Source of the DNA: Natronoarchaeum mannanilyticum
GTDB taxonomy: Archaea > Halobacteriota > Halobacteria > Halobacteriales > Natronoarchaeaceae
Direction: 5' to 3'
DNA: 64,000 nucleotides
Assembly: GCF_039522665.1 (NCBI RefSeq)
Contig: NZ_BAAADV010000007.1
Location: forward strand, 434,001-498,000
Both the position numbers and the translations under genes were made by a program. Below are positions 22,888-44,616 of the stretch, piece by piece. Numbering within the stretch: the stretch's first letter is position 1; the number at the start of each line of letters is the position of its first letter. The notes below the pieces were generated by a model. It was given only the letters and a program-made list of their open reading frames with translations, did no database searches and was not told the origin of the DNA.

Positions 22888-24768
22888 CTACTCGCCGCCG
22901 ACCGACCCCTCGAAGAACGTGTCGAGCAGCGCGCGCTGGCCCTTCCGGAGGTGGTTGTGCAGCGTCGGCGAGGAGACGTCCATCGAGTCGGCGACCTCCT
23001 CGGCGGTCGATCCCCGCGGCCAGTCGAAGTAGCCCGCGTAGTAGGCCGCCCGCAGCGTCGCCTCCTGGCGATCTGTCAGCTCGTCCTCGACGCCCTCGCG
23101 GAACTCGCGGACGGTCTGGACCGGCCGCTCGACCTCCCGCTTGCCGACGAGTTCGGTGTCGGGAAACGCCGTTCGGAGGCCGTCGACGACCGCCCGGAGA
23201 TCGGCGTCCTGCGCGACCTCCGCGACCAGGTCGCCGTCGCCGGACTCGAAGACGGCGTCGGTGATCGTCGCGCCGTGAGCCGCGAGAGTCAACAGCGGCG
23301 AGTCGCCCCCGACGACGAACTCCAGCAGCGCGCCGTCGCCGTGGGTCTCGACCAGTCGGACTTCCTCGACGCCGCGGTGCTCGACCGCCAGATCGAACAC
23401 GTCGCCCGGATCGGCGTCCGCGACGGTGACGTGAAACAGGAGCGACGAGGCCGAGACGGGGGCGATCGATTCGAGACTGAAGGTGCAATCGAGGCGCGCC
23501 GACGCGTCGACGAAGACGGCGCCCTCGTCGCGACAGCGGAACTCGAGTTCGACGGCGGCGTCCGACAGCAGGAGGTTCCGGCGCTGGATCGCCGTGAGCG
23601 CGTGCCCGATCCGGCGACCGAGCGCCGAGAGTTCCTCCCCTTCCCAGTCCTCCGGCGCGCCGCGGTCGGTCGCGACCGCGAGGACGCCGTAGGTCGTCTC
23701 CCGGTGAGCGAGCGGCACGGCCGTCACCGCGCCGACGCGGTCGGCGTCGACAACGGACCCTTCGCCGTCGCTCGCAGCCCCGTCGGCGTCGCCGGCGGGG
23801 AGCCCCTCGTCGATCTCGGCGACGCTGACCGCGCCGTCGCGAACGGCCTCGGTCCACGGCGGAACGGCCGACGCCTCGTCGAACCGCTCGATTAGGGCGT
23901 CGACGCCGGAGCGGTCGATGCCGGCCGCGGCCGCGGGCGTGGGGCGTTCGTCGGTCAGGTCGCTGGTCGCGATCCACGCACCAGCGTACTCGTCGCCCTC
24001 GGCCAGACGCTCGCAGACGCCCACCTCCAGATCGTCGCGATCCGACGCCGACAGCACGGCGTCGTCGACCGCCCGAACGCGATCGCCGAGGTCGACCCGA
24101 CGCTCCAGTCGGTCGGCGCGCTCGCGCAGTTCCTCCGCCCGCGAGGCTCCGTCGGACGCCCGCGCCGGAGCCGTATCGCCGGTCCCGACGTCGGCGTCCG
24201 AGAGCTCGGCCGCGACCGTCGATTCGTCGGGCTCGCCGAGGAGCCGGTCGAAGCTCTCGAAGCTCTCCCACCCGCCGACCGCCAGCACGACGCGGGGGTC
24301 GACGCGCTCTTCGACGAGCAGCGTCCGGGCGAAGTACGCACGAAGGTCGCTCGCTGCGACGGCCGCGAACCGGTCGTCGCCCGTCCGGTCGGCCGCCCGG
24401 TCGGCGACCTCCGCGACGAGCATCTGGATCCGCCGCGGCGAGACGTCGACGACCCGCTCGTCCGCGTCGATCCCGTTGCTCCGGACGTACCTGTCGAGCG
24501 AGCGCCGCAGGTCGTCGGGGACGTACGCGATCCGATCGCGTTCGCCGGATTCGGCGCGGACGTCGAGCAGCGCGCCGGACGCACGGTCGCCGGTCGATCG
24601 AACGTCGTCAGGGCGGAGTCGAGTCACCTCACCCGTCCGAAGTCCGACCTCGCCGATCAGGCGGACGACGAGCGCCTTGCGGTACGTCTCGGCGCTCTCC
24701 GCCAGTTCCCGGTACTCCGGGCCCGACAGCACGCCGTCGTCCGTGCTTTCCCGGGCGAGTGCACCCAT
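22888..24768 (-). CDS. Bat-type (HTH-10) transcription regulator with a degenerate tyrosine-recombinase domain
   Basis: A 626-residue regulator. Residues 13-180 resemble the catalytic domain of tyrosine recombinases: GLRTGEV supplies the box I Arg44 and SDLRAYFARTLL the box II Arg143. The box II His is Ser140 and no Tyr stands at the nucleophile position after GGWESFESFD, so it cannot recombine DNA by the known mechanism. Next come a coiled segment (about 205-235), a GAF-like sensor domain (about 240-410), the bacterio-opsin activator domain (about 415-555) and a C-terminal HTH-10 (AEEVADSMDVSSPTLHNHLRKG). It lies between two acs genes on the same strand. Control of acetate use is inferred from position only. 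Confidence 0.88.
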   Translation of the reverse strand: MGALARESTDDGVLSGPEYRELAESAETYRKALVVRLIGEVGLRTGEVTRLRPDDVRSTGDRASGALLDVRAESGERDRIAYVPDDLRRSLDRYVRSNGIDADERVVDVSPRRIQMLVAEVADRAADRTGDDRFAAVAASDLRAYFARTLLVEERVDPRVVLAVGGWESFESFDRLLGEPDESTVAAELSDADVGTGDTAPARASDGASRAEELRERADRLERRVDLGDRVRAVDDAVLSASDRDDLEVGVCERLAEGDEYAGAWIATSDLTDERPTPAAAAGIDRSGVDALIERFDEASAVPPWTEAVRDGAVSVAEIDEGLPAGDADGAASDGEGSVVDADRVGAVTAVPLAHRETTYGVLAVATDRGAPEDWEGEELSALGRRIGHALTAIQRRNLLLSDAAVELEFRCRDEGAVFVDASARLDCTFSLESIAPVSASSLLFHVTVADADPGDVFDLAVEHRGVEEVRLVETHGDGALLEFVVGGDSPLLTLAAHGATITDAVFESGDGDLVAEVAQDADLRAVVDGLRTAFPDTELVGKREVERPVQTVREFREGVEDELTDRQEATLRAAYYAGYFDWPRGSTAEEVADSMDVSSPTLHNHLRKGQRALLDTFFEGSVGGE

Positions 24769-29003: not shown

Positions 29004-30134
29004 TCAGCCCTCGTAGCCGGCGTAGTCCATCAGTTGGGCGAACACGTCGGAGTCCATCGCGGACTCGTAGACGATCCCGTTGACCATTCCGCCAGGGTAG
29101 AAGTTCCCGTTCATCGCGTGGTTGACCTTGTGGCAGTGCATGAGGTAGATGCCGGGATCGGCGTCGGCCTCGAACTCGATGGTCTTGCGTTCGGCGGGCG
29201 CGACGTCGACGATGTCCTGGTCGTGCTGGGCGGCCTCGGGCACCTGCCCGCCGTCCTTCTCGACGACGCGGAACCGGTGGTTGTGCGTGTGCATCGGGTG
29301 GTTCATGTACCCGTTGTTGGCCAGGTGGATGCGCACGGTGTCGCCCTCCGAGACGATGATCGGCGAGCCGTCCTCGGGGTGGAGCGTGCGGGGCGCGGAC
29401 TTGCCGTTCATCGTGAACACGTCGGGTCGGCGGTTGCGCGGGCTGTAGCTGGCGTCCTCGCCGGCCATCTGGCGGCTGAGCCGGGAGTCCCAGTCCTTCA
29501 TCGTCATGAACACCTCGCGGTCGGCCGGCTCGTACCCCTCGGGATCGACGCGGAAGACGCCGTACATCCCCATGTCGATGTGCCGGTGGGTCTGGTAGTG
29601 GCAGTGGTAGAGGTGCGTACCGGGCACGTTCGCGGGGATCTGGTAAGTGTGCTTCTCGCCGGGATCGACGCGGATGCCCGTCGTCGTCGGGACGCCGTCG
29701 TTCTCCCAGGTCTTGCTGACCCCGTGGAAGTGCAGCGTGTGGGGATGGTCGACGCCGGTGTTGTCCAGCGTCACTTCCATGTCGTTGCCCTCGGTCGTCC
29801 GGAGGATCGGACCGGGGACGCTGGGGTCGCGGTCGTCGGCCTGAAACGCCCACACCCGGGGGAGTTCGACGGGACCGCCCATCGTCTCCAGCGGGTGAGC
29901 CTGATGGACCGACGGCACCGTCCGCATCGTCACGCTGCCGCCCTGCTCGTCGACCTGCACGACCTCGGGCGGCGAGGTCGTCGGGAGGTCGGCGGCCGCC
30001 TGCTGGGGCTGCATCTGCGATTCCTGGGAGGGAGCGGTACAGCCAGCCAGCGCGAGGGTGCCCGCGCCGCCGGTCGCCGCCACGAAGTCGCGCCGCGACA
30101 TCTCCAGTCCGGGTGCGCCGATGTTGTCGCTCAT
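29004..30134 (-). CDS. Two-domain multicopper oxidase, Tat-exported lipoprotein
   Basis: This 376-residue copper protein has an SRRDFVAATGG Tat signal and a lipobox LALAGC (Cys32), so it acts on the outer face of the membrane. It has two cupredoxin domains. Domain 1 carries LHFHG (His135, His137) and HCHYQTHRHIDM (His177-Cys178-His179, His183, axial Met188), a complete type 1 site with trinuclear-cluster histidines. Domain 2 carries HPMHTH (His279, 282, 284) and HCHKVNH (His333-Cys334-His335, His339) with Asn344 at the axial place. The Cys-to-His spacing is laccase-like and not that of NirK nitrite reductase. The natural substrate is unknown; phenols, Cu(I) or metal ions are common for the family. 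A TATA box lies 30-36 bp upstream. Confidence 0.9.
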   Translation of the reverse strand: MSDNIGAPGLEMSRRDFVAATGGAGTLALAGCTAPSQESQMQPQQAAADLPTTSPPEVVQVDEQGGSVTMRTVPSVHQAHPLETMGGPVELPRVWAFQADDRDPSVPGPILRTTEGNDMEVTLDNTGVDHPHTLHFHGVSKTWENDGVPTTTGIRVDPGEKHTYQIPANVPGTHLYHCHYQTHRHIDMGMYGVFRVDPEGYEPADREVFMTMKDWDSRLSRQMAGEDASYSPRNRRPDVFTMNGKSAPRTLHPEDGSPIIVSEGDTVRIHLANNGYMNHPMHTHNHRFRVVEKDGGQVPEAAQHDQDIVDVAPAERKTIEFEADADPGIYLMHCHKVNHAMNGNFYPGGMVNGIVYESAMDSDVFAQLMDYAGYEG

Positions 30135-30163
30135 TGTGTACACCTCGACGTAAGAAGACCCGG

Positions 30164-30170
30164 AATATAA
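30164..30170 (-). promoter_or_regulatory. TATA box of the multicopper oxidase gene
   Basis: TTATATT on the minus strand, 30-36 bp before the ATG at 30134, the spacing of leaderless haloarchaeal genes. The divergent membrane gene has CTATAC at 30243-30248, 26-31 bp before its ATG at 30274, so the two promoters sit in one 139-bp spacer. Confidence 0.6.
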
Positions 30171-30273
30171 CGGGGAAAACTGGTTCTCACCGCGTGGGAA
30201 CGTCGCGAACATGTTCGGGACCCCATGCAGACTGCTAGAAAGCTATACCTATCGGGGCGTTGTGATCGCGACC

Positions 30274-34663: not shown

Positions 34664-34718
34664 CTACGCGAACGGATTCGGGATCAGATACACCGGGGAT
34701 ATGTGACGACTGTCGGGT

Positions 34719-34874
34719 ATGGCAACGGACGCGACGGAACGGTCCGAGGACGTACCGTGGCCCCAGCAGATACTCGACAGCATCTGGTTGCTGGCCCTCG
34801 CGGCCATCCTCTACTGGGTGCTCGCGTACGTGGTGTGGGGCATCGTCGACATCCTCGCGGTTCCCATGGGGTGA
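34719..34874 (+). CDS. Small single-helix subunit of the heme-copper oxidase operon
   Basis: This 51-residue protein has an acidic start (MATDATERSEDVPWP), one membrane helix (residues about 20-45, IWLLALAAILYWVLAYVVW) and the end VDILAVPMG. It lies six bases before the CuA subunit gene. It resembles the small CbaD-type subunits found before the subunit II gene of B-type oxidases in haloarchaea, so it is probably part of the membrane complex. It is easily missed in annotation because of its length, but the position and helix make it real. Confidence 0.75.
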   Translation: MATDATERSEDVPWPQQILDSIWLLALAAILYWVLAYVVWGIVDILAVPMG

Positions 34875-34880
34875 TCGCGG

Positions 34881-35855
34881 ATGGAATCACCGATCGACAA
34901 ACCCGAGGGTGACTGGTGGTCCGAGAAGATCAACCGCCGCGAGACGATCTGGCTCGGCCTGAGCGGCGGTTGGGCGCTCACGCTGTTCGGCTGGATGCTC
35001 GGCTGGTCGCAGTTCGGCGACCAGAACCAGGTCGGCGAGACGTACAAGCTCACGACCGAGCGGTTCCTCGAAAAGGTCCGGTCGTACAAGCAAGCCGCCG
35101 GGAGCCTGACCGTCGACGGCGAGGAGATGCTCGTCCCTCACGACAACGACGTGTACGTCGGCGCGCTCCAGTGGGACTGGGACGGCCTGCCGGTCGTGCT
35201 CCGGCCGGGCGAGACCTACCGGTTCCACCTCGGATCGTACGACGTCCAGCACGGCTTCTCGGTGCGCAACGAGGACAACCTGAGCCAGCAGATCTCGCTG
35301 CAGATCCTGCCGGGCTACGAGTGGGTCCTGGAGATGTCGTTCGACGACCCGGGCACCTACCAGGTCGTCTGCAACGAGTTCTGCGGCACGAGCCACCGGT
35401 CGATGCACGGCAAGTTCGTCGTCCGGGACCACGAGCCCGTCGAGACCGGCGCCGACGAGGGTAGCGGGTCGGGCGGCGACGAGTACGGCGGCTGGTTCAC
35501 GGGCGACGCGTCGGGCGGCCCGACGCCGAACTTCGACGGCGAGACGGCCGATCGGACCGGCCAGGAGGAAGTCACCGTCACGGTCGGCGGCGCCGAGGAC
35601 GCCAGCAGCTCGAACGTGTACGGTCCGCCGGCGGTTCGGGTCTCTCCAGGGACGACGGTCACCTTCGAGTGGGCGTCGGTCGGCCACAACGTCGCCGTCG
35701 AATCACAGCCCGACGGCGCGTCGTGGCAGGGGCACGAATCGCTCGAAGATAGCGGGTTCACGACACAGCACACGTTCGAGACGGAAGGCGTCTACAAGTA
35801 CTACTGCGACCCGCACCTCCGGGTCGGCATGAAAGGCGTGGTGGAGGTGGCGTAG
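34881..35855 (+). CDS. Heme-copper oxidase subunit II (CuA) fused to a halocyanin domain
   Basis: A 324-residue fusion. One membrane helix (about 22-47) anchors it. The CuA domain shows all ligands: His124 in VQHGFSV, then Cys164, Cys168, His172 and Met175 in CNEFCGTSHRSMHG. A Gly/Asp-rich linker (about 195-225) joins a type 1 copper domain of the halocyanin family with His269 (GHNV), Cys309, His312 and Met317 (YCDPHLRVGMKG). An electron donor is thus tethered to its acceptor, so electrons can pass halocyanin to CuA to subunit I. It lies directly upstream of subunit I with no gap. The ligand set is complete, so both sites should bind copper. Confidence 0.95.
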   Translation: MESPIDKPEGDWWSEKINRRETIWLGLSGGWALTLFGWMLGWSQFGDQNQVGETYKLTTERFLEKVRSYKQAAGSLTVDGEEMLVPHDNDVYVGALQWDWDGLPVVLRPGETYRFHLGSYDVQHGFSVRNEDNLSQQISLQILPGYEWVLEMSFDDPGTYQVVCNEFCGTSHRSMHGKFVVRDHEPVETGADEGSGSGGDEYGGWFTGDASGGPTPNFDGETADRTGQEEVTVTVGGAEDASSSNVYGPPAVRVSPGTTVTFEWASVGHNVAVESQPDGASWQGHESLEDSGFTTQHTFETEGVYKYYCDPHLRVGMKGVVEVA

Positions 35856-37568
35856 ATGTTCGGCTTCAGTACGCACGAGTACGACGACGAGGGGTTCCGC
35901 ACCTGCAACGTCACCGGCCTCACCATCCACCGCTCGGCGGAGGACATGGTGAAGCTGTACGGGCTCACCGCGATCGTCGCGCTGGCGATCGGCGGCGTCT
36001 TCGCCTTCTTCGTCGCGATGACCCGCTGGGAGCTGGTCTCGCTGCTCTCGCCCGCTGACTTCTACACGTACCTGAGCATGCACGCGTGGAACCTGCTGAT
36101 CTTCTGGATGATCTTCATGGAGATCGCCATCCTCTACGTCGGGGGCGCGTTCGTGCTCGGCAGGCGCCTCTCCCTGCCCCGGCTGGCGAAGGTCGGCTGG
36201 GTCGTCATGGCGACCGGCGCGGTCGTCGTCAACGCCGCGATCTGGACGACCGAAGCGCCGAACCAGGCGCCGCTGCTCACGTCGTACGTCCCGCTGCCCT
36301 CGAACTGGCAGTTCTACGCGGGCGCGATCGTATTCATCCTCGGCGCGGTCGTCGCCGCGCTGCCCTTTTTCGCGACGATCTGGCACGAGCGCCGCGAGAA
36401 CCCGAACGAGACGCTCCCGCTGGTGACGTTCGGCGCCTTCATCACCGGCATCGTCGCGCTGGAGTCGCTGGTCGGCGGGCTGATCACCTACGTCCCGACG
36501 CTGCTGTGGCGCGTCGGCGAGTTCTCGACGATGGATCCCGCCTTCTACCGCCAGATGTACTGGATCATCGGCCACGGTAGCCAGCAGATCAACCTGCTGG
36601 CGATGATCACCGTCTGGTACTTCCTGACACACGTGCTCGGCGGCGCGGAGGTCGCCAGCCAGAAGGTCTCGCGGACGGCGTTCGTGCTGTACCTGTTCTT
36701 CATCAACCTCGGGGCGGCCCACCACCTGATGTCGGACCCGGTCGTCTCGACGGGCTGGCGGATGTGGAACACCTCCTACGCCGCCTACGGCGCGGTGCTG
36801 GCGAGCATGATCCACGCGTTCGCGATCCCCGCCGGACTCGAAGCCGGGCGCCGCGCGAAAGGCAAGGGCGGCGGCCTGTTCGGCTGGCTCTGGTCGAGCC
36901 CGTGGGACGATCCGGGCTTCTCGGCGACGATCATGAGCATCATCCTCTTCGGCTTCCTCGGCGGGATCACCGGCGTCATGATGGGACAGATGCAGCTCAA
37001 CATGACCTGGCACAACACGCTCGCGACGGTCGGCCACTTCCACGCGACGGTCGTCACCGGGACGACGCTTGCGTTCATGGGGCTGGCCTACTACGTGCTC
37101 CGGCTGGTGTTCGGCCGCGACTGGGCGATGAAGCCGTTCGCGAAGATCCAGCCGTACCTCTACGCCGGCGCGATGTCGCTGCTCGTGTTGATGATGATGT
37201 ACGTCGGGATCCTCTTCGGCGTCCCACGGCGCCACCCCTCGGTGATGGACATCCCCGGCACGGAGTTCAGCTTCGCGCCCGCGAAGCCGTTCTTCGTCGT
37301 GTTCGGCGTCGCGGCGCTGCTGGCGATCCTCGGCGGCGCGCTGTTCGTCCTGATCGCCGTCGCCTCGCTCCTGACCGGCGATCGGTTCGACGCCGACTCG
37401 GTCGGCGACGTGACGCGCGCGGCCGCCGACGGCGGCGACGCGAAGCCGATCCACGAGTACAGCATGCGCGGCACCTTCACGCTGTGTCTCGTCTTCCTCG
37501 CGACGTTCGTCGTGCTGTGGGGGCTGAACTGGTACCTGCTCTCGACGGTCTGGCAGATCGGCCCCTGA
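35856..37568 (+). CDS. Heme-copper oxidase subunit I with Gln in place of the cross-linked Tyr; possible NO reductase
   Basis: A 570-residue B-type-like subunit I with about 13 helices. Heme and copper ligands are all seen: His76 in MHAWNLL (heme b), His240 in GHGSQQ, the pair His289-His290 in AAHHL (CuB), and His394 and His396 in GHFHATV. In oxygen reductases the first CuB motif is GHPxVY, with Tyr four residues after the His, cross-linked to it. Here that residue is Gln244, and the Pro is Gly241. Oxygen reductases need this Tyr; NO reductases of the family lack it. It may therefore reduce NO, or be an unusual oxidase. It starts directly at the end of the subunit II gene and is the core of this operon. 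Confidence 0.9.
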   Translation: MFGFSTHEYDDEGFRTCNVTGLTIHRSAEDMVKLYGLTAIVALAIGGVFAFFVAMTRWELVSLLSPADFYTYLSMHAWNLLIFWMIFMEIAILYVGGAFVLGRRLSLPRLAKVGWVVMATGAVVVNAAIWTTEAPNQAPLLTSYVPLPSNWQFYAGAIVFILGAVVAALPFFATIWHERRENPNETLPLVTFGAFITGIVALESLVGGLITYVPTLLWRVGEFSTMDPAFYRQMYWIIGHGSQQINLLAMITVWYFLTHVLGGAEVASQKVSRTAFVLYLFFINLGAAHHLMSDPVVSTGWRMWNTSYAAYGAVLASMIHAFAIPAGLEAGRRAKGKGGGLFGWLWSSPWDDPGFSATIMSIILFGFLGGITGVMMGQMQLNMTWHNTLATVGHFHATVVTGTTLAFMGLAYYVLRLVFGRDWAMKPFAKIQPYLYAGAMSLLVLMMMYVGILFGVPRRHPSVMDIPGTEFSFAPAKPFFVVFGVAALLAILGGALFVLIAVASLLTGDRFDADSVGDVTRAAADGGDAKPIHEYSMRGTFTLCLVFLATFVVLWGLNWYLLSTVWQIGP

Positions 37569-37601
37569 CGCTGGCCTGCCGCCAGGACGGTCGACCTGAG
37601 C

Positions 37602-37700
37602 ATCACGTCGCGGCGTCGTGACGCCGACCGTGCCGCGGCATCGTGACGCCGACCGTGCCGCGGCATCGTGACGCCGACCGTGCCGCGGCGCCGTGACGCC
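37602..37700. repeat. 25-bp tandem repeat with a palindromic core
   Basis: Units begin at 37617, 37642 and 37667, with a partial unit at 37692 and a degenerate one before the first. Each of the three has CGTGACGCCGACCG followed by TGCCGCGGC; in the first two the palindrome TGCCGCGGCA is perfect, and in the third the last base differs. It lies in the 181-bp gap after the heme-copper subunit I gene and before the membrane gene at 37750. It may be a terminator, a protein-binding array or a slippage product. Confidence 0.8.
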
Positions 37701-37749
37701 AACACATTCGGGACAACGACCACCCACGGGGCCCGCAAACCCAGAAACG

Positions 37750-38493
37750 ATGACCGACGAGTCGACCGACGCCGAGTCCGCACGATCCGACGCATCGGCG
37801 TCCCCGATACGCGCCGTCACGGGTCTGGTCGGGAGCGCCTGGAGCGCGCTCAAGACGGTGTACTACGCTAACTCGCTGAGCTGGCGATTCCTCAAGAGCG
37901 GGACGCTGCTCCTGTTCGGCTTTTTCCTGTGGGCCGGCGCGAACGTGCTGTACTCGTACAACCCCGACCTCGCGGTGCTCCGCTATCCGATGGCCTACGG
38001 GTTCGTGCTGATCCTGTACGGCCCGTTCCACCACCTGGTGGTGCTCCCGCTGGCGTTCCGCTGGCGACGGGACTCGGGAACCAGGCGAACCGTCGGCCGA
38101 AAGCTGCCGAACGCGATGCTGGCGGTCTTTCTGGCGGTCGTCCTCGTGCTCGGGACCGCCCCCGTCGGCGCGATGGTGGTCGATTTCCAGAGCACGCTCG
38201 GATCGGACGGGTCGGACGTCAGTCCCGACCTGATCTGCGAGGGCGCTGAGACGGAGAACGGAACCGAGATCAGCTGCGAGCTGTCGGAGTCCGAGGGCGT
38301 CGATCGCGTCGTCGTGACGAGCGGCGACACCAAGCTGGTCGACGACGCCGACCCGCCCTACGAGTTCACGATACGCGAGCGTGAGCTCGAATCCGTGACC
38401 GGGGAGAAGCAGTTCACCGTCGAGCTGGAGGACGAAGACGGAACGATGATCCGCCGGTACTCGCGGCGCCTGTCGATGATCGAGGGCGCGTGA
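37750..38493 (+). CDS. Membrane protein with external beta domain, hypothetical
   Basis: A 247-residue protein with three hydrophobic segments (residues about 52-72, 78-100 and 118-138), followed by an external domain of about 100 residues rich in Asp/Glu/Ser/Thr. The external part has an IG-like look (VVVTSGDTKLVDDADPPYEF and KQFTVELEDEDG) and contains two Cys (ICEG, SCEL) that could form a disulfide. It follows the heme-copper operon after 181 bp in the same direction, so it could be an accessory protein of that enzyme, but no motif supports it. ATG 37750 is chosen over an upstream in-frame ATG because the acidic part starts there. Confidence 0.75.
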   Translation: MTDESTDAESARSDASASPIRAVTGLVGSAWSALKTVYYANSLSWRFLKSGTLLLFGFFLWAGANVLYSYNPDLAVLRYPMAYGFVLILYGPFHHLVVLPLAFRWRRDSGTRRTVGRKLPNAMLAVFLAVVLVLGTAPVGAMVVDFQSTLGSDGSDVSPDLICEGAETENGTEISCELSESEGVDRVVVTSGDTKLVDDADPPYEFTIRERELESVTGEKQFTVELEDEDGTMIRRYSRRLSMIEGA

Positions 38494-42660: not shown

Positions 42661-44616
42661 ATGAGCGATCCGGACGGCGACGACGGGGTCGGCGGTACCG
42701 GTCGCGGCGAGACGACGACCCACTCCAGTCGGAACGAGAGCCGAGAAGAGGGTCGCGGGACGGGTTCGGGCCGCCGCGATATAGAGGACGCCGAGCAGAC
42801 GGGACTGCACGATCGAGAGCAGCCCGATCCCGAGGAGTCGGTTCGCGAGGCCGTCGAGCGCTCCCGGAGCGGCGCGCCCGCGGTCGGCGCCGTCGTCCGG
42901 GACCGATTCTCCTCGGACGAGGTGTTCCAGCGGATCGTCGCCGCGGCCGACGAGGAGATCACCTCCGGGAGCCGCGAGCTGTTTTTCAGCGCGCTGGCCG
43001 CCGGCTTCGCGATCACGATCACGTTCCTGCTGTACGTCTCGCTGTACGCCTCGACCGGCGGCGACCCGGTCCTGAGCGCGCTGCTGTACCCGCTCGGATT
43101 CATCTACATCATCATCGGCCGCTACCAGCTGTACACCGAGAACACGCTGCCGCCGGTCGCGCTGACGATCGAGCGGATCGCGAGCGTGCCGGCGCTGCTG
43201 CGCAACTGGGGCGTCGTGCTGGCGGGCAACTTCACGGGCGGCGCGCTCGGCGCCGCCGCGCTGGCGTGGGGCGGCGTCTTCTCGCCCGAGGCGGCGACCG
43301 CGGCGGTCAGCATCAGCCAGAAGGGCGTCGCCACCGGCTGGTGGCCCTTGTTCTCGAAAGCCGCGTTCGCGGGGCTGGTCGTCGCCGGCGTCGTCTGGGT
43401 GGAGTACGCCGCCCGTGACACGATCTCCAGGCTCGCGGTCGTCTACCTGGCGTTCCTTGCGATCCCGCTGGGCGGGCTGTTCCACTCGGTGGTCTCGTTC
43501 ACCGAGCTGATGTACCTGGTGTTCGTCGGCGAGGGCGCGCTGCTCGCCGGCCTGTGGGGATTCGTGCTGCCGGTCCTGCTCGGGAACACGATCGGCGGCG
43601 TCCTGCTGGTGACCGTCGTCAACTACTTCCAGACGACCGAGCACCGGCTCGAATCCGCGCGCTTCGAGGGCGCCGACCGGCAGCTCTCGGCCGACGAGTG
43701 GCTGTTCGGTCGCTTCGCCGGGCGCTCGTACGTCCCGCTGATCGACACCGCCGACGCGCCCCGGGCGCAGGACGCCGAGTTCAACCTGCTCGTTCCGATC
43801 GCGAACCCGCGAACCGAGACTCAGCTCGTGGAGCTGGCCTGCCGGATCGTCGGCGAGCGCGAGGACGCCGCGGTCCACGTCGTCCACGTCGTCCAGACGC
43901 CCGAGCGCTCGCCGAGAGGGTACGGCGCCGAGCAGCGCCGCCAGATCGTCGCCGAGTCGAACGAGTTGCTGGAGGACGCCCGCGAGACGGCCCGTCGCCA
44001 CGACGTTACCTGCGAGACGTCGACGGTCGTCTCCCACCGCTCGTTCGAGGAAATATTCGACATCGCCGAGCGCGAGAACGCCGACCGGGTCCTGATGAGC
44101 TGGGGCGACAACCGGCTGTGGGCGTCCGGCCGCGCCGAGCGGCCGCTGAGCGAGCTCACTCGGAGTCTCCCGTGTGACTTCCTCGTGCTCGACGGCGACG
44201 ACCTCGACGCGTCGCGGATCCTGCTGCCGACCGCGGGCGGCCCGAACTGCGAACTGAGCGCGGACGTCACCCACGCGCTGCAGGCCTCCGTCGGCTCGGA
44301 GGTGACGCTGCTCCACGTCGTCGACGGGCCGGACGACCGCGACGCCGGCGAGCAGTTCCTCGCCGACTGGGCCGCCGACCACGATCTGGAGGACGCCGTG
44401 CGGGTGGTCGACGACTCGGGCGACGTCGAGCGCGCGATCGGCCGCAACGCGGCCGACCACACGCTGGTCGTGATCGGCGCGACCGAGGAGGGGCTGCTCT
44501 CGCGGCTCGCCACCGACTCGCTGCACTACGACGTTATCGAGGAGGTCGACGTGCCGATCCTGTTCGCCGAGCGCGCGAGCGACCGGAGCCTCCGGGATCG
44601 CCTGTTCGGCCGGTAG
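42661..44616 (+). CDS. FNT family anion channel fused to two universal-stress domains
   Basis: A 651-residue fusion. Residues about 95-335 form a formate/nitrite transporter domain with six helices, including FHSVVSFTELMYLVFVGEG with the pore His and GNTIGGVLLVTVVNYF, the family signature. After a linker, two Usp-type domains follow, starting at FNLLVPIANPRTETQ (about residue 374) and SRILLPTAGGPNCELS (about 518). The first 90 residues are a long disordered acidic N-tail. The FNT fold carries formate, nitrite, acetate or lactate. Usp domains may sense ATP or stress and gate the pore; that is inference. It is convergent with the disulfide reductase gene. Confidence 0.9.
   Translation: MSDPDGDDGVGGTGRGETTTHSSRNESREEGRGTGSGRRDIEDAEQTGLHDREQPDPEESVREAVERSRSGAPAVGAVVRDRFSSDEVFQRIVAAADEEITSGSRELFFSALAAGFAITITFLLYVSLYASTGGDPVLSALLYPLGFIYIIIGRYQLYTENTLPPVALTIERIASVPALLRNWGVVLAGNFTGGALGAAALAWGGVFSPEAATAAVSISQKGVATGWWPLFSKAAFAGLVVAGVVWVEYAARDTISRLAVVYLAFLAIPLGGLFHSVVSFTELMYLVFVGEGALLAGLWGFVLPVLLGNTIGGVLLVTVVNYFQTTEHRLESARFEGADRQLSADEWLFGRFAGRSYVPLIDTADAPRAQDAEFNLLVPIANPRTETQLVELACRIVGEREDAAVHVVHVVQTPERSPRGYGAEQRRQIVAESNELLEDARETARRHDVTCETSTVVSHRSFEEIFDIAERENADRVLMSWGDNRLWASGRAERPLSELTRSLPCDFLVLDGDDLDASRILLPTAGGPNCELSADVTHALQASVGSEVTLLHVVDGPDDRDAGEQFLADWAADHDLEDAVRVVDDSGDVERAIGRNAADHTLVVIGATEEGLLSRLATDSLHYDVIEEVDVPILFAERASDRSLRDRLFGR

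Follow-up and report, generated by a model that had tools for sequence, protein, structure and literature searches.

A probable eNOR-type nitric oxide reductase with a halocyanin-fused subunit II in Natronoarchaeum mannanilyticum

Oxygen reductases carry a cross-linked tyrosine in the active site, and a heme-copper catalytic subunit with glutamine at this position raises the questions of which gas it reduces and to which family it belongs. One such subunit I is encoded at 35856..37568 (+ strand) of the window, the 64,000-nucleotide stretch of Natronoarchaeum mannanilyticum DNA analysed here. A preliminary description of the locus suspected a CuA-type NO reductase annotated as a cytochrome oxidase, but could not tell the family by eye. 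The suspicion is now well supported, and the family can be named: assignment of subunit I to eNOR rests on the glutamine signature, the clade in which the protein is found and its genomic linkage to the nitrite reductase NirK. It is considered very probable that the operon at 34719-38493 encodes an eNOR-type nitric oxide reductase, with NO as its predicted substrate.

The subunit I frame translates without stops into 570 amino acids with the features of an eNOR-type heme-copper catalytic subunit (PF00115 COX1, 3e-53). The complete set of six heme and CuB ligands (His76, His240, His289, His290, His394 and His396), and the glutamine four residues after His240, are as previously described and were confirmed by translation, by phmmer comparison with ba3 oxidase and by alignment. 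In a phmmer search of the PDB, residues 32-500 align with Thermus thermophilus ba3, which places GHPIVYF opposite GHGSQQI and the cross-linked Tyr237 of the Thermus enzyme opposite Gln244, within the active-site codons His240-Gly-Ser-Gln243-Gln244 at 36573..36587 (+). All of the PDB sequence matches were ba3-like and no solved eNOR structure was among them; an AlphaFold2 model of subunit I (mean pLDDT 82.5, pTM 0.88) has the heme-copper oxidase fold, with ba3 structures as its best match. The motif GHG[ST]QQIN was present in 30/30 best matches when 394 haloarchaeal genomes were searched, in an unbiased way, with the whole protein, so Gln244 is not a product of chance or sequencing error. In the alignment, site 244 is Gln in 41/41 eNOR rows and Tyr in 11/11 B-type rows, the bacterial loci having been retrieved by patterns that included QQ, which makes the invariance there partly circular. 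Gln243, Gln244, Asn246, His320, Glu89, Asn305 and Tyr308 are invariant in the 41 eNOR rows and essentially absent from the 11 B-type rows. Tyr255 and Ser317 are also invariant in eNOR and mostly retained in B-type sequences, and the K-channel Thr312 position of the B-type oxidases (Thr in 11/11 rows) is occupied by His320 (codon 36813..36815, +) in all 41 eNOR rows.

The residue at this site differs between families, being Tyr in oxygen reductases, Glu in cNOR and qNOR, Asn in sNOR and CuANor and Asp in gNOR, with Gln as the signature of eNOR (PMC8756737, including Table A4). Neither Glu nor Asn is present at His+4 in subunit I; the qNOR of the same genome reads HMWVE, and the sNOR-like rows with GHVFIN (L186-L188) form a separate clade. 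In the C-type (cbb3) oxidases, the active-site tyrosine has its one other known site, on helix VII, six residues ahead of the CuB histidine pair. A tyrosine supplied by another helix had been put forward as a finding that would count against NO reduction. That idea fails at the helix VII site, where the cbb3 references have Tyr (FLYIWAGPHH) and no tyrosine was found in the eNOR rows, which have Ile (Ile283 here) or Leu. It keeps some ground on helix VIII, where Tyr308 and Tyr311 are conserved among the Q-type sequences and could conceivably represent a wholly new active-site tyrosine position.

A tree of 76 rows places all 41 Q-type sequences on one side of a branch with an SH-aLRT of 100; the rows of qNOR, of the sNOR-like GHVFIN proteins and of the ba3 (Tyr-type), A-type and C-type oxidases lie outside it. 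Clustering with proven oxygen reductases, also raised earlier as a counter-indication, is not seen. The link to the proven R. marinus eNOR is a probable one, made through the published Gln signature and membership of the Q-type clade. The novelty implied earlier does not hold, as the family, its chemistry and its presence in Halobacteria are already known: four NOR families have been characterised biochemically, eNOR among them; it is related to the B family and includes a member reported to reduce NO (PMC11388526), and it has been reported in Natronomonas and as a cluster across the Halobacteria (PMC8756737). The window operon is a further member of this family, with a fused-cupredoxin feature. 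Within the 394 haloarchaeal genomes the distribution is sharply bimodal, with 71 genomes encoding a protein 62-84% identical to subunit I (in one of them the gene is split in two), followed by a gap to <=34% identity, where the ba3 oxidases begin. Outside the haloarchaea, Thermus, Defluviimonas and Thermomicrobium plasmids encode relatives with 41-42% identity over 97% of the length, and more than 500 candidate stretches with subunit I relatives were found in bacterial and archaeal genomes. In the Thermus thermophilus plasmid eNORs (L040:11983-13665 and L041:11983-13668), the GHFH of the remaining 39 rows is GHFK, which puts Lys at the position of the second ligand to the low-spin heme, so that a His/Lys-ligated or altered heme is possible; their CuA is present, with Asp for Glu (CNDYC). 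Subunits I from an Azospirillum plasmid (L150) and a Hyphomicrobiaceae genome (G397, L190) read HN[LM]HY at the site on helix VI, have YH for the HH pair of CuB, and form a divergent B-related group adjoining eNOR in the tree.

Subunit I is preceded by two smaller genes and followed by a third, all on the + strand. The operon begins with a 51-aa single-helix protein (34719..34874) resembling subunit IIa of B-type oxidases (PMC3128077), which is conserved ahead of the subunit II gene in eNOR loci of both haloarchaea and bacteria; an equivalent small one-helix frame is present in the Thermus, Thermomicrobium and Defluviimonas loci. Subunit II (34881..35855; 324 aa) lies directly upstream of subunit I and comprises one helix, a CuA domain with the complete ligand set (CNEFCGTSHRSM and an upstream His) and, after a linker, a C-terminal halocyanin domain (residues 215-323; 35523..35849) with the full type-1 Cu ligands (CDPHLRVGMKG). 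This domain matches TIGR03102 at 4e-26, just below the curated cut-off, and PF00127 at 4e-17. The tethered halocyanin that had been proposed for this locus is therefore real, and it is a C-terminal fusion to subunit II with complete copper ligands. Subunits II and I are paired in 21/21 haloarchaeal loci, the window included, and the halocyanin fusion occurs in 8/21 of these versus 0/79 bacterial loci in which the CuA subunit could be read; it appears to be a less known feature of the family, of which an earlier description may exist. Haloarchaeal eNOR operons close with a conserved membrane protein, about 240 aa long (37693..38493, likely ATG at 37750), which adjoins eNOR in 19/21 loci, again including the window, gave no family match in profile searches and is putatively an extra subunit or assembly factor. 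A heme o synthase gene is located between subunit I and this membrane protein in the nearest haloarchaeal relatives and directly downstream of eNOR in 32/70 bacterial loci; it is not found in the window operon, and one distant homologue is present elsewhere in the genome. A bc-type cytochrome b gene occurs in 61/80 bacterial eNOR loci (L047-L126), often less than 2 kb away, which hints that electrons come from a module dedicated to the enzyme; none is found in the window operon.

Across genomes, eNOR is associated with nitrite reductase. NirK is encoded in 67/71 eNOR carriers compared with 147/323 non-carriers among the 394 haloarchaeal genomes (Fisher p 7e-16); such p-values overstate independence because the genomes are related, and the safer genus-stratified test, across 15 genera, gave a CMH z of 6.5 and an odds ratio of about 30. 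NirK was found within 15 kb of eNOR in 11/34 genomes with listed positions. At bacterial eNOR loci, NirS was nearby in 13/80 and NirK in 4/80, many of the contigs being short, and a Thermus eNOR adjoins NirS-like and NirK-like genes. There are 25 haloarchaeal genomes with NirK and eNOR and no qNOR; as a point against the association, 32 NirK-positive genomes of the 394 have neither reductase. Simple replacement of qNOR by eNOR was considered and is not claimed: eNOR occurs in 25/57 NirK-positive genomes without qNOR and in 42/157 with it (p 0.02), and the effect is weak within genera (CMH z 1.5). In the N. mannanilyticum genome itself, NirK lies beside qNOR on contig 1 and eNOR is elsewhere; neither NarG nor NosZ was detected in the assembly, which is about 96% complete, and the predicted span is therefore nitrite to N2O. 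Five A-type oxidases with GHPEVY are available for O2. A Tat-type two-domain multicopper oxidase in the window (29004-30212, - strand) was assessed as a NirK candidate and discarded at 59 bits against a cut-off of 296 bits, the true NirK being that on contig 1. A box at 30206-30217, about 70 bp before its likely start, is a perfect denitrification motif (CGAACATGTTCG), and in H. mediterranei denitrification induces operons that encode multicopper oxidases (PMC11218638). Movement of nitrite could involve a protein encoded 5 kb downstream of the operon (42661-44616, +), in which a formate/nitrite transporter (Form_Nir_trans) is joined to a domain of the universal stress protein type (Usp).

The region upstream of the operon contains a palindromic box, CGAACGGATTCG (34669..34680), 50 bp before the first gene, whose halves match the haloarchaeal denitrification motif CGAAYATDKTYG with two mismatches at the centre; in Haloferax mediterranei, this motif is a mark of denitrification gene promoters (PMC11218638). 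A box is found at the same position in 8/11 relatives with a located small subunit, and chance placement within one 20-bp bin would be very unlikely, although the relatives are not independent; the window holds two such boxes, with about 1.9 expected by chance. A CGAA-N4-TTCG box also occurs 77 bp before the qNOR of the same genome, and another lies some 50 bp ahead of the open reading frame for a Tyr-type A oxidase on contig 7 (L003:1245), suggesting that this oxidase is regulated by low oxygen or denitrification. The latter copy weakens the reading of the box as denitrification-specific, since low oxygen rather than NO may be what it reports, and at most the box points to low-oxygen or denitrification-type control of the eNOR operon. 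A bacterioopsin-activator-type regulator (BAT/HTH_10, NarO/DmsR class; 22888-24768, -) is encoded about 10 kb from the operon. Elsewhere in the genome, a 513-aa membrane protein with weak heme-copper similarity (C1:226619-227683; L008, L009) has a denitrification box at -50, and its relatives (family F19) are found near eNOR or NirK in three other genomes (L139, L142, L145).

From these features a route for catalysis can be proposed. Electrons would pass to the type-1 copper of the fused halocyanin, then to CuA of the same polypeptide and on to the low-spin heme (His76/His396), which would in turn supply the high-spin heme/CuB pair (His394; His240, His289 and His290), where 2 NO + 2 e- + 2 H+ would yield N2O + H2O. 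The pocket would be formed by Gln243, Gln244 and Asn246 in place of the oxidase Val, Tyr and Trp; a tyrosine radical would be unneeded because there is no O-O bond to break. An eNOR is expected to have one proton channel; here, protons would probably be drawn from the cytoplasm via a K-like path (Ser317, His320 and Tyr255), in which His320 replaces the B-type Thr. Alongside NirK and a separate qNOR, the enzyme would constitute the NO-removing or the energy-conserving step of a partial denitrification from nitrite to N2O. Reduction of NO by the window complex is a prediction from gene content and residues, and either respiration of NO or its removal alone may be the role.

Other readings of the locus need to be weighed against that of an eNOR-type NO reductase. 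The enzyme might descend from the B-type oxidases and act as a terminal O2 reductase at low oxygen, dispensing with the tyrosine and reducing NO incidentally at most. The fold and the closest solved structures are those of ba3 oxidases, the CuA subunit II and IIa-like helix resemble those of an oxidase, and the upstream box is shared with an A-type oxidase of the same genome; but a tyrosine is absent from both known positions, the association with NirK is strong, five Tyr-bearing A-type oxidases already serve the genome and a family member has been reported to reduce NO (PMC11388526), and this reading is considered improbable. Membership of another non-Tyr family (sNOR, gNOR, bNOR/CuANOR, cNOR or qNOR) is scarcely credible: there are several of these families, and CuA is also a feature of bNOR, but the site residue is Gln and not the Asn of sNOR and CuANOR, the Asp of gNOR or the Glu of cNOR and qNOR (PMC8756737, Table A4), and the sNOR-like GHVFIN and qNOR rows lie elsewhere in the tree.

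A more substantial alternative concerns the role and not the chemistry, which is the same as that of the preferred explanation, so that confidence in the two overlaps. The window eNOR may detoxify NO under oxic or microoxic conditions, with qNOR and NirK as the respiratory pair. This is a credible reading, held with somewhat less than even confidence, given that NirK lies next to qNOR and apart from eNOR, that NarG and NosZ were not detected and that eNOR has been cited as reducing NO under microoxic conditions (PMC11388526). It is countered by the 25 genomes with NirK and eNOR and no qNOR, in which eNOR would have to deal with the product of NirK, and by the CuA entry and K-like path, which suggest energy coupling.

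Two papers on haloarchaeal denitrification describe qNOR/NorZ as the only NOR class of the group (PMC8400030, PMC8301774); the eNOR counts obtained here disagree with these qNOR-only reviews and agree with PMC8756737. Annotated by default as cytochrome oxidase subunit I, eNOR goes unseen, and with the family in 71/394 haloarchaeal genomes, 25 of them with NirK and no qNOR, the capacity to form N2O is under-counted when qNOR alone is scored. No NO assay of a haloarchaeal eNOR was found in the literature searched, which did not extend to the key primary eNOR papers. The halocyanin fusion to subunit II and the breadth of eNOR in haloarchaea appear to be less known. The CuA-halocyanin fusion offers a direct handle on electron delivery to a CuA-type NOR in organisms whose c-type cytochromes are thought to be replaced by proteins of the blue-copper kind. 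Speculatively, and with a doubtful chance of being right in full, haloarchaea may have an eNOR form of their own, a complex of four proteins made up of the IIa-like helix, the CuA-halocyanin fusion, the Gln-type subunit I and, as a true subunit, the ~240-aa membrane protein, with a tethered blue-copper protein replacing cytochrome c, coupling NO reduction to the proton motive force, in a family that is the sole NOR of a sizeable set of NirK-bearing haloarchaea.

In comparison with known systems, the window operon is closest to the eNOR family described from R. marinus, Natronomonas and other Halobacteria, Chloroflexi and Proteobacteria (PMC8756737, PMC11388526), with which it shares Gln at CuB-His+4, all of the heme and CuB ligands, a CuA cupredoxin subunit II immediately upstream and B-family ancestry, at about 40-45% identity to bacterial members. 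It differs in the halocyanin at the C-terminus of subunit II and the extra membrane protein at the operon end and, unlike its nearest haloarchaeal relatives and many bacterial loci, it has no heme o synthase gene. With the ba3 oxidases of Thermus and haloarchaea it shares the overall fold, CuA subunit II and small IIa-type subunit, but it has Gln for Tyr, His at the Thr312 position and Gln/Asn for Val/Trp, is about 30% identical and belongs to a separate clade. Haloarchaeal ba3 uses halocyanin as its redox partner, in some cases as a fusion to subunit IIa (PMC3128077), whereas in the window it is carried on subunit II. Haloarchaeal qNOR (NorZ/NorB) has the expected NO reduction and the NirK association in common with eNOR, and N. 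mannanilyticum has both enzymes; qNOR, in contrast, consists of one subunit, uses quinol, has Glu at the site and forms a separate clade. The bNOR (CuANOR) of Bacillus azotoformans is likewise a CuA-containing, B-family-related NO reductase, and is set apart by its published site residue only, Asn (PMC8756737, Table A4); gNOR is set apart by description, with a published Asp where the window protein has Gln.
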